Shown in pieces: positions 16,521 to 20,609 of a stretch of DNA of 20,609 nt. The stretch is taken from positions 3,604 through 24,212 of IMG/VR virus record IMGVR_UViG_3300037847_004966; one strand, given 5' to 3'. Both the position numbers and the translations under genes were made by a program. Positions within the stretch are counted from its first letter, which is position 1, and every line of letters starts with the position of its first letter. Origin of the DNA: a virus. The notes beneath the pieces were generated by a model. That model had not been told where the DNA came from and made no database searches. It saw only the letters and a list, made by a program, of their open reading frames with translations.

Positions 16521-16759
16521 AACGCACAGAAGTAGTATTCCCTGAATCACCCAAGAACCCCGTTGTGGTGTTCGAGACGGTTCAAGAGGGCACAGATAAA
16601 CTGACGACTCAGTACATCAACTTGCGGTACGCGTACTCTATTCGAGTCGCGCGTTCCACGTTAGCTATTGGTTTCTCTGGCGGTGAGATCGTTGTCGACG
16701 GCGTAGACGCAGAAGACGCGGCTCACATCGCTGAGAAGTGGCTCGACCTGCAACCCTGA
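16517..16759 (+). CDS. Small protein of unknown function, last gene of the plus-strand virion operon
   Basis: The start overlaps the scaffold stop by 4 nt (ATGA), so it is probably translated by coupling. The 80-residue product looks like a small alpha/beta fold: strands VVVFETVQEG, YAYSIRVARS, TLAIGFSGGEIVVDGVD and an amphipathic end helix AEDAAHIAEKWLDLQ. No family is recognised. The stop lies 2 nt from the convergent minus-strand gene, and a 9-bp inverted repeat starts 9 nt beyond, likely ending the operon. Confidence 0.68.
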   Translation: MKRTEVVFPESPKNPVVVFETVQEGTDKLTTQYINLRYAYSIRVARSTLAIGFSGGEIVVDGVDAEDAAHIAEKWLDLQP

Positions 16760-16761
16760 AA

Positions 16762-17310
16762 CTACCATCCGTGGGGGATGATATGCCCAGGCCCCCACGG
16801 AGTTTCTTGCACCAACACTTTCTTACCTGAAGGACTCGCGACTGGAAACGGTTCGAGTCCTTCTTGTTCTTCTACTGTCGGACACCAGTAAAACGACAGG
16901 GTCTCCCGACCAGAGTCGCCCCACCAACGAGACCAACCGTTTCGTTCGTAGTACGCGTGACAGTCTGCCTGACTTGTGGGTACGCGCTCACCAGCACTCC
17001 ACTTCTGCCAGCCTGAGGGAGGCACGATCTTCCCGTCATCGGTCGTTACCACCTTGGTATCACTTTCTGGGGGAGGCTCAGATTTTTTCTTGGCTTCGGC
17101 CTTGGGTCCCTGACGGGGTTTGGGTTTCTCTTGAACAGGTTCAGGCGCTCCCTTGAACGTCTTGAGTCCGCGAACCAACGCTGCTCGAGCCACCATCTCA
17201 TACGTGACGTCGACGCCCAGCTCAACGACGGTGGGTGTTTTCTTCATCTCTTCGATTGCCGCATTGAGTTGCGCGAGAACCGAATCATCCAGTGTAAGTG
17301 TAATGTCCAT
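16762..17310 (-). CDS. Ribbon-helix-helix-like protein with Trp-rich C-terminal domain, possible regulator
   Basis: The product has 182 residues, with ATG at 17310 behind a perfect AGGAGGTCAT. The first 55 residues fit a ribbon-helix-helix (strand MDITLTLDD, helix SVLAQLNAAIEEMKK, helix TYEMVARAALVRGLKTF). A Pro/Lys-rich linker follows (about 56-95), then a Trp-rich domain with GWQKWSAGERVPTSQADCHA, YYERNGWSRWWGD and LSFYWC. This second domain is not one I can name. It is a single-gene unit on the minus strand, between two plus-strand blocks, with its own promoter. Both facts fit a regulator, but DNA binding is inferred only from the predicted fold. Confidence 0.7.
   Translation of the reverse strand: MDITLTLDDSVLAQLNAAIEEMKKTPTVVELGVDVTYEMVARAALVRGLKTFKGAPEPVQEKPKPRQGPKAEAKKKSEPPPESDTKVVTTDDGKIVPPSGWQKWSAGERVPTSQADCHAYYERNGWSRWWGDSGRETLSFYWCPTVEEQEGLEPFPVASPSGKKVLVQETPWGPGHIIPHGW
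16769..16800. terminator. Inverted repeat at the convergent junction, probable terminator
   Basis: CCGTGGGGG (16769-16777) and CCCCCACGG (16792-16800) form a perfect 9-bp stem with a 14-nt loop. On the plus strand AGTTTCTT follows, a weak T-rich tail, so it may end the rightward virion operon. It lies inside the last codons of the minus-strand gene. For leftward transcription the tail is poor. Confidence 0.5.
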
Positions 17311-17325
17311 ATGACCTCCTCAGTC

Positions 17326-17354
17326 AGCATAACAACCGAGGTGTCTTTTGACAA
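17326..17354 (-). promoter_or_regulatory. Sigma70-type promoter of the ribbon-helix-helix-like gene
   Basis: On the minus strand TTGTCA (17354-17349) is 17 nt from TATGCT (17331-17326), matching the consensus at 5 of 6 and 4 of 6 positions. The -10 box ends only 15 nt before the start codon, so the leader would hold little more than the ribosome site. Confidence 0.55.
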
Positions 17355-17686
17355 GTTGGTATGGAGTTTGAAAAATACACACGCCGAATGAAAGGGCTCT
17401 ACGTAGGGGCCCGGCGACACGACGTAGGGGGGTGGTGGGGTCTTTGTCTCGAGAACAAAAAAGACCGGAGCTCAAGTAATACCTTTAAGGTGGTTTCGAA
17501 CCCCATTCTACTGGTCGGTAGATTCGTTGGAACTGGCCACTATCATGTGGAGGATCGGGTTTGGTCTTGACAAGCCAACACCGAAACTTTGAGGGCTGAA
17601 AGTCAGTCTACTAATGAGTCGATTTGTTGGGATCCTTAACGTAAAGGATGGAGCTCACCCTTGCCAAGTCAATAGCCCGATACTCT

Positions 17687-17728
17687 GTTTCCTTTATAGG
17701 TGATCGTGTTTCCCTTAAAAGTGATCGT
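17687..17728. repeat. Two tandem copies of a 21-bp repeat
   Basis: Copies at 17687-17707 and 17708-17728 agree at 18 of 21 positions. Each starts GTTTCC, continues with a T/A-rich middle containing TTA, and ends GTGATCGT. The spacing of two helical turns places the GTGATCGT blocks on the same DNA face, as in operators or iterons. Confidence 0.75.
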
Positions 17729-17780
17729 CTTTGAAAACCAAGGTTCAACCTATAGTATCGAGTTTTCTTCAATATTTTGT

Positions 17781-17809
17781 TTAACATTATTGACACCCTG
17801 GCATAGACT
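17781..17809 (+). promoter_or_regulatory. Candidate promoter for the small-gene block
   Basis: TTAACA (17781-17786) is followed after 17 nt by TAGACT (17804-17809). A TTGACA (17790-17795) and TATAAG (17809-17814) overlap it with a spacing of only 13. The -10 region is framed by GACAC (17792-17796) and GTGTC (17814-17818), an inverted repeat that may be an operator. Transcripts would carry a leader of about 190 nt with two hairpins before the gene at 18005. Confidence 0.35.
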
Positions 17810-18004
17810 ATAAGTGTCGAAAGGGGGAACCCCTTAAGACACGCTCTTTGAAAAGCCCTATAGACGCTCCCTCTCATGAGGCAGTCCCTTAGAATATTGG
17901 AGGTCTAAGGGGTGACGATTCAGACAGAGGTTGAGGTCTCGACTGGTGGCAATGGTAGCCAGCCGAAAACAAACAATAAACCCTGAAACATTCAAAGGTA
18001 TACA

Positions 18005-18448
18005 ATGACAGATCAAGCGAAAATGTTTTCACCAATTCAAGCTATCGCTCTAAACTCCCTTGCTCGCAAGGTCAACGGGCCAAAAGCCTATACGGATCGA
18101 AACGGTAACCCTTGCTCCGCACGTAGTTTGGTGGACCCTGGTGAATATCATGGGGAGTTCGTTCCTGGTATCGGGTTCGGTCTTATCATAGGCGATCCTA
18201 AACCAGGTAAGCGAAACATATCATGGGCCAAATTGGCGCCCCTGTTCATCAATCGGACGAACGACCAAACGATTGCGGCGATCGTCAAACTGGCGACGGA
18301 TGGACGGTACGAAAGTATAACGGACGCCAAATCCGAACTACTTGAACCGCTTCGGACTCCGACCCTCCAAGATGCTCGACTTAAGACTAAGTATCTCCGA
18401 GTGTCTGAAGTCAGCCAGATAACGACGCGACGATCGAGAATCGGATAG
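18005..18448 (+). CDS. Unknown protein (147 residues), first gene of the small-gene block
   Basis: ATG at 18005 has AAAGG six nt upstream and the start context TATACAATG, close to the TTTACAATG of two later genes. The protein begins MTDQAKMFSPIQAIALNSLA. It contains a Gly/Pro-rich part (EYHGEFVPGIGFGLIIGD) and a second half of helices (AAIVKLATDGRYESITDAKS). The end is basic (ITTRRSRIG). No family or motif is recognised. It is not lysine-rich like the virion-block proteins. It starts about 190 nt after a candidate promoter, with hairpins between. Coding is supported by the ribosome site and an uninterrupted frame. Confidence 0.68.
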   Translation: MTDQAKMFSPIQAIALNSLARKVNGPKAYTDRNGNPCSARSLVDPGEYHGEFVPGIGFGLIIGDPKPGKRNISWAKLAPLFINRTNDQTIAAIVKLATDGRYESITDAKSELLEPLRTPTLQDARLKTKYLRVSEVSQITTRRSRIG

Positions 18449-19585: not shown

Positions 19586-19815
19586 GCGTCTGGTCTCGAG
19601 CTCGAGGCGCGCTCGACTCGAGATATGATGATAGTTCCGGGTCCGGCGTCCGGAGTCCGGAGTCCGGAACCGGCGGACCGGCGAACCGGCGAACGAAACC
19701 GCCAAACCATATCCGCGACGGTCGATCCCTTTATATTATGTCCGGCGTCCGGCGAGGCAGGAGACCCGGCCGGACCGACCGGACCGGACGGACCGACCGG
19801 ACCGGACGGAAAAGG
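19586..19815. repeat. GC-rich tandem repeats downstream of the terminator
   Basis: No gene is supported here. Three CTCGAG sites occur between about 19595 and 19622. From 19641 to 19691 the DNA is a run of 7-8 bp units (GTCCGGC, then three GTCCGGA, then ACCGGCG, GACCGGCG, AACCGGCG). GTCCGGC repeats twice at 19740-19753. From 19772 to 19807 GGACCGACC and GGACCGGAC alternate, giving an 18-bp unit twice. The plus-strand reading has a collagen-like GPT/GPD pattern, which I take as a by-product. It lies directly after the stop of the minus-strand zinc-ribbon gene. Confidence 0.8.
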
Positions 19816-20353: not shown

Positions 20354-20609
20354 GTATTGTGTTAAGAGAATGTCAAGACGCTCGAGGTGCTCGAGGTCAG
20401 CGAAACTTGAACCGCTACTTTAACCCTGGTCTTTCGACGTCAAGAGCTCGGCGCTCGAGGTCGGCAATTTCAGCCCCTCAAGTAACCTCGAGCTCTTGTG
20501 TTGACCGGACAAGACTAAGCGGCGCGTCTCGTGATAGTTTCCGGACCGGACGGACCGGACGGACCGGCGGAACAACGACCGGCGGAACCTCGAGGGGCTG
20601 AAAGTTATA
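20354..20609. repeat. Repeat-rich right end, no gene supported
   Basis: Imperfect direct repeats of about 32 nt start at 20372 and 20439 (both begin GTCAAGA and contain GCTCGAGGTC). TTTCAGCCCCTC (20468-20479) and GAGGGGCTGAAA (20592-20603) are perfect inverted repeats 112 nt apart. GGACCGGAC occurs twice in tandem at 20543-20560, followed by GGACCGGCGG. Five CTCGAG sites fall in this stretch. Plus-strand open frames exist but are Arg/Gly-rich products of the repeats and lack ribosome sites. Confidence 0.7.

Follow-up and report, generated by a model that had tools for sequence, protein, structure and literature searches.

The 694-nt gap at 17311-18004 of the window, a 20.6-kb stretch covering positions 3604-24212 of a 24.2-kb virus record, is best explained as a divergent control region with which the early genes of an uncultured phage of ~70 kb begin. 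A structured leader RNA, previously uncatalogued and belonging to an uncultured phage family, occupies the right third; that this RNA is real is close to certain. The stretch from approximately 17814 to 18004 is very probably the cis-acting leader of the early transcript. By analogy with known systems, this leader may be a boxA/Nus-type antitermination signal that mixes rrn- and nut-like parts with lineage-specific ones, the favored reading, for which the chances are about even. Most of what is known about phage antitermination comes from the lambdoid phages that infect enterobacteria. If the reading is true, the host Nus machinery would be exploited well outside lambdoid phages, through an RNA module absent from Rfam. 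The small size of the element (~190 nt) makes a direct reporter test possible.

Genomic setting and the left part of the gap

Virion genes (terminase, portal, and others) run rightward and end at 16759. A lone leftward gene for a 182-aa protein follows, and from 18005 onward come the small early genes, a block into which a 157-aa minus-strand gene breaks. Short G+C-rich repeats (CCGGA/TCCGGAG units) were also observed in the early block at 19636-19810 and 20541-20571, the first set sitting between plus genes and one minus-strand gene. The best identity of the terminase to named phages is ~25% at a coverage of ~75% of its length; as far as sequence comparison goes, the phage family is without a close cultured relative. 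Its IMG/VR relatives include near-complete genomes of 65-73 kb. In G001, the one genome scanned, PolA is fused to a uracil-DNA glycosylase domain, and genes for a primase/helicase and a DNA helicase are also present. The DNA polymerase A at L061:9073-11856 carries the uracil-DNA glycosylase domain at its N terminus. All four near-complete relatives encode a giant ORF of 2590-4190 aa (L060:6878-17887 and homologs), the length of which differs greatly among them; in G001 nothing in PHROG matched it, and Pfam gave no more than a match below threshold.

Table 1. Coordinates of features in and beside the gap, in window positions.
Feature	Position	Strand	Remarks
182-aa gene	16762..17310	-	divergent from early genes; conserved over the phage family (34-100%)
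Module A, family-wide conserved DNA element	17320..17446	.	GGTA half-sites, GTTTTGAAAAATAC..TCG, GGGxCCC, CGGGGGxGGGGG
Sigma70-like promoter of 182-aa gene, TTGTCA-17-TGnTATGCT	17326..17354	-	conserved in L058, L052, L053
Tandem repeat, 21 nt, 2.2 copies	17686..17732	.	not conserved: 13-nt deletion there in L052, L053
Candidate leader-RNA promoter, TTAACA-17-TAGACT	17781..17809	+	weak; not clear in G002
P1 hairpin, GUGUC..GGGG-GAA-CCCC..GACAC	17814..17842	+	directly 5' of boxA-like sequence
BoxA-like GCUCUUUGAAA and conserved linker to AUAG	17843..17863	+	between P1 and long hairpin
Covariance model R1, match extent	17846..17969	+	model search
Long covarying hairpin	17863..17938	+	outer helix 17863-17875/17926-17938
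Long hairpin, inner helix	17877-17880/17919-17922	+	covarying
Long hairpin, internal loop GCA // GACGA	17881-17883 // 17914-17918	+	invariant
Long hairpin, apical stem	17884-17893/17904-17913	+	covarying
Apical loop AUAUUGGAGG	17894..17903	+	invariant
P5 hairpin, conserved GGCAAYGG	17943..17962	+	changes mostly one-sided
147-aa first early gene	18005..18448	+	3' of leader; AAAGG as its own SD; genuine coding pattern

The original prediction held that gene-free space is rare in this genome and that the gap separates the virion block from the small-gene block. Both statements stand: the gap is the longest in the window (the runner-up measures 269 nt), with the virion block, ending in the divergent 182-aa gene, on one side and the small early genes on the other. 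Gaps of several hundred bases occupy the same place in other members, for example G002, L028, L047, and L040. The predicted tandem repeat is present, as are the A+T-rich stretch (17731-17820, up to 74% A+T) and several TTGACA boxes: three lie on the plus strand (17348, 17567, and 17790), of the seven in the whole 20.6 kb. Promoter-like sites number four in the gap versus 1.8 expected from shuffles. The claim of at least four inverted repeats fared less well. One stem, at 17886-17911, is real; counted strictly as perfect 7-bp stems, the total does not exceed that of shuffled sequences (27 of 200 reach it).

The predicted scarcity of good genes is borne out by both candidate frames, which are broken in relatives. 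In L053 and L052, ORF 17361-17570 does not stay open. ORF 17611-17877 was rejected as a protein because L058, at 93% identity, has eight stops in it and because its substitutions are spread evenly over codon positions (11/10/8, compared with 4/3/35 in the adjacent, real 147-aa gene). A short frame at 17311-17391 (MTSSVSITTEVSFDKLVWSLKNTHAE) has a half-coding look against L053, but its start codon is absent in L053 and L052, and its conservation is better explained by a promoter or operator. No tRNA was found. The prediction had named conservation of either frame as protein, or a lack of any conservation, as the outcomes that would count against it; neither frame is conserved in that way, and the gap region is conserved in relatives. 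Against L053/L052 (70% relatives), identity is ~90% over 17321-17400 and 67-90% over 17841-17920 but falls to 40% near 17441-17520 and near 17681-17720. Judged from these sequences, two parts of the gap are under selection, 17320-17446 and 17814-17969.

For the left of these parts, the proposal of a promoter array survives as a conserved divergent promoter region, with the minus-strand promoter of the 182-aa gene (Table 1) and an overlapping plus-strand TTGACA-17-AAAAAT at 17348-17376 inside module A. Identity to L053/L052 over 17321-17400 reaches 90%, versus 45-82% over most of the neighboring gene. The pattern of GGTA, GTTTTGAAAAATAC, GGGxCCC, and G-rich sequence recurs at the same place even in members whose 182-aa proteins share no more than 36-45% identity with that of the window. 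Beside this gene, much of the family shares an element of the form GGTAATACC/GGTAAGGTGTTTTGAAAAATAC, GGGxCCC, and CGGGGGGTGGGGGG. Module A is probably an operator, promoter, or packaging site, the simplest account being an operator/promoter region. The 182-aa protein itself matched nothing in Pfam, PHROG, or PDB. Its family, with >50 loci, has an invariant C-terminal motif TPWGPGH in addition to GWxRWWG. It might be a ribbon-helix-helix repressor on account of predicted N-terminal helices, but Pfam and PDB gave no match.

The conservation of module A as DNA across much of the family would also suit a DNA element (a replication origin, or a packaging or terminus site acting through double- or single-stranded DNA structure), an explanation that concerns mainly this module and is quite improbable. 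The ends of G001, G002, and G003, three of the four near-complete relatives, lie roughly ≤1 kb from the gap or from where the virion block ends. The two ends of G001 are near-identical over 64 bp (95% identity). A genome terminus near the gap is possible. The clustering of ends was, however, noticed after the fact, and several contigs cross the gap unbroken. An origin, one of the functions first suggested, found no support in cumulative GC skew, which turns at ~7-8 kb and 55-58 kb and not at the gap in two ~70-kb relatives of the same layout.

A covarying RNA structure before the early genes

The suggestion of a regulatory RNA holds for the right third (17814-17969), where the proposed folding with covariance across relatives revealed compensatory changes. 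From 5' to 3', the plus-strand RNA consists of a hairpin, the boxA-like GCUCUUUGAAA, a long hairpin, and a second hairpin. The alignment is a small one of five sequences from about four lineages (the window, L058, L053/L052, and G002), two of the five being close to each other. In the 28-pair structure, 93.5% of cells are paired, compared with 31-51% in slid controls. Two-sided changes occur at 16 of the 28 pairs; shuffles give 5.6, and none of 500 reaches 16. The covariation score over the five sequences is 0.543 versus 0.265. One helix reads UGAG/CUCA, CGAC/GUCG, or GGCU/AGCC, depending on the relative. The complementarity of P1 is retained in all five sequences, but its outer pairs hardly vary and hence give no independent covariation.

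Within paired positions, G-U cells outnumber A-C cells by 11 to 2, and therefore the plus strand is likely the RNA. The same bias counts against the DNA-element explanation, since it identifies module B as an RNA. When L058, L052, and G002 are folded freely, the same architecture emerges without the alignment. In the window, fold energy dips strongly at 17810-17929 (z = -4.1); it is remarkable in L058 as well, whereas it is ordinary in L053, L052, and G002. Covariation is the main argument. These ordinary energies, together with the strict stem count, would agree with an ordinary divergent promoter region in which hairpins arose by chance. This account is nevertheless hardly tenable in view of the compensatory changes relative to slid and shuffled controls and of a block identity exceeding that of the surroundings.

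No Rfam family exceeded its gathering threshold. The motifs GUGACGA and GAAA had raised the idea of a hammerhead ribozyme, which was rejected: the CUGANGA core is missing, all five sequences carry RUGACGA without the C, and the Rfam hammerhead gave no match. The covariance model R1 detects G002 at 103 bits, G002 being one of its seeds. Among 24 further family records it matched this seed alone, and among 48 loci with the 182-aa gene it matched none. Pattern scans of IMG/VR and GTDB genomes returned R1 matches in the same family members only; a Mycoplasma locus (L345) scoring 12 bits was dismissed as chance. The R1 hairpin is limited to six contigs of about four lineages and is therefore a feature of one subclade.

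The RNA lies directly 5' of the same gene in the window, L058, L052, and L053, and of another early gene in G002. This placement speaks against a trans-acting phage small RNA, for instance an antisense or protein-sequestering one, as does the lack of an intrinsic terminator before the gene at 18005. Such an RNA would be compact and strongly structured with an invariant single-stranded loop, as observed, and through its GGAGG loop it could base-pair with ribosome binding sites or imitate them; we rate it as improbable as the DNA element.

A 5'-UTR element for translation or mRNA stability, with a leader peptide from 17912 coupled to the early gene, is unlikely. Here the leader RNA would be present in any case, and in all five sequences the apical loop offers an SD (GGAGG) followed by GUG or AUG (RUG) at constant spacing. 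The possible leader peptides, however, measure 24, 15, 26, 36, and 6 codons and have no sequence in common beyond their first residues. Between the window and L058, moreover, their frame is shifted by an insertion of one base. The spacer between SD and start is a conserved stem, which would block initiation. Translation also leaves the invariant GCA//GACGA internal loop and the boxA sequence unexplained.

The boxA-like sequence and a proposed antitermination leader

The gamma-proteobacterial boxA is GYTCTTTAANA (PMC5725501). The sequence GCTCTTTGAAA at 17843-17853 is one base off this consensus. For the form of boxA in other hosts, 16S leaders were read from an alphaproteobacterial sample, giving GCTCTTTGACA (two), GATCTTTGA (two), and GCTCTTTA (one) at 136-180 nt upstream of 16S; a Vibrio 16S leader has GCTCTTTAACA at -191. 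Taken against GYTCTTTAANA or a host equivalent, GCTCTTTGAAA in the phage leader is boxA-like and of the type seen at the boxA position of alphaproteobacterial 16S leaders. The site in L058 reads GATCTTTGACA, compared with GCTCTTTGAAA in the window, and the core CTTTGAAA is kept in G001 and G002 while the first bases vary.

BoxA-like sites extend beyond the range of the hairpin, to relatives 34-40% identical in the 182-aa protein. In L423 (GCTCTTTGACAAC) and L424 (GTTCTTTGACAT) they lie in the leader just 5' of an early gene. L425 carries CTTTGAAATCTCAATA in the leader before an early gene, the same 16 bases occurring in G001 and G002. In L412 and L428, GCTCTCTGACAAC follows a strong TTGAC(A/G)-17 promoter by ~45-55 nt, again in the leader before an early gene. 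Over 41 members, TCTYTGAMA occurs seven times on the plus strand and a single time on the minus strand, the expectation being 0.96. This pattern was loosened after L054/L055 had been seen and is thus partly chosen post hoc; most members are without a site. The stricter G[CT]TCTTT[AG]A.A occurs three times in the 41 members against an expected 0.17. The leaders of L423, L424, and L425 combine an rrn-like boxA with a differently structured leader, and they are possibly independent variants of the same device.

In the proposed mechanism, the early transcript would run rightward and begin with ~17814-18004 as an untranslated leader. The P1 hairpin would emerge first and the boxA-like sequence second, the latter presumably bringing NusB/S10 (NusE) of the host to its RNA polymerase during elongation. 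The long hairpin and the GGCAAYGG hairpin could then touch a phage protein, a Nus factor, or the polymerase itself, which would become processive through the early region. The order hairpin, boxA, long hairpin, together with the absence of a terminator between the RNA and the gene at 18005, fits an antitermination leader. Against it stand the shortness of the boxA, the weakness of the candidate promoter 5' of P1, the restriction of the R1 hairpin to one subclade, and the 157-aa minus-strand gene that breaks the early block.

It is unlikely that the leader represents a new class of processive-antiterminator RNA, in which a host-type boxA is fused to a phage-specific RNA module. In such a class, the invariant GCA//GACGA and AUAUUGGAGG loops themselves would contact RNA polymerase or a Nus factor, and the RNA module would stand in for a protein such as lambda N. 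Promoters of T7-like or N4-like polymerases, considered in view of CTATAG motifs and a genome size of 70 kb, were rejected, no RNA polymerase having been found. The large proteins scanned included none, and the giant ORF, scanned in one member, had no polymerase match; a search with PF00940 was also negative, though weakly so, as its control search was empty too.

Comparison with known antitermination systems

Antitermination in rRNA operons involves Nus factors, SuhB, and S4. The phage element resembles an rrn leader in having a candidate promoter, a hairpin, and a boxA-like sequence at the presumed transcript start, with a boxA matching alphaproteobacterial 16S leaders. Unlike an rrn leader, it precedes early genes, and its boxA stands before a conserved hairpin with invariant loops, which is not known from rRNA leaders. 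In rRNA operons the promoter is followed by boxB, then boxA, then boxC, and recruitment of the complex needs no more than boxA (PMC10250234). A boxC-like UGUGUGGG, as defined in enterobacteria, is not present 3' of boxA in the gap sequence.

In lambdoid phages, boxA and boxB act with protein N to antiterminate early genes. Nus-dependent non-lambdoid coliphages exist as well, for example mEp021 (PMC11893012). As in lambda nut and mEp021, the leader of the early genes presents a boxA-like sequence and then a hairpin. Unlike lambda nut, the hairpin spans 76 nt with the 10-nt loop AUAUUGGAGG and an internal loop, in place of a short boxB with a GNRA-like or A-rich loop. The phage also belongs to another lineage, and neither an N-like protein nor a homolog of N was found among the proteins scanned.

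The put RNA of HK022, a structured RNA of ~70 nt, antiterminates without a dedicated protein factor (PMC9378689). The phage element is similarly a two-stem-loop structured RNA in an early phage leader just past a candidate promoter; compared by description, it differs from put in its structure and in containing a boxA-like sequence. EAR is a cis-acting structured processive antitermination RNA of host biosynthesis operons in Bacillus. The two would be alike as cis-acting structured antiterminator RNAs of comparable size, but no sequence relation is known between EAR and the phage leader element, which matched nothing in Rfam.
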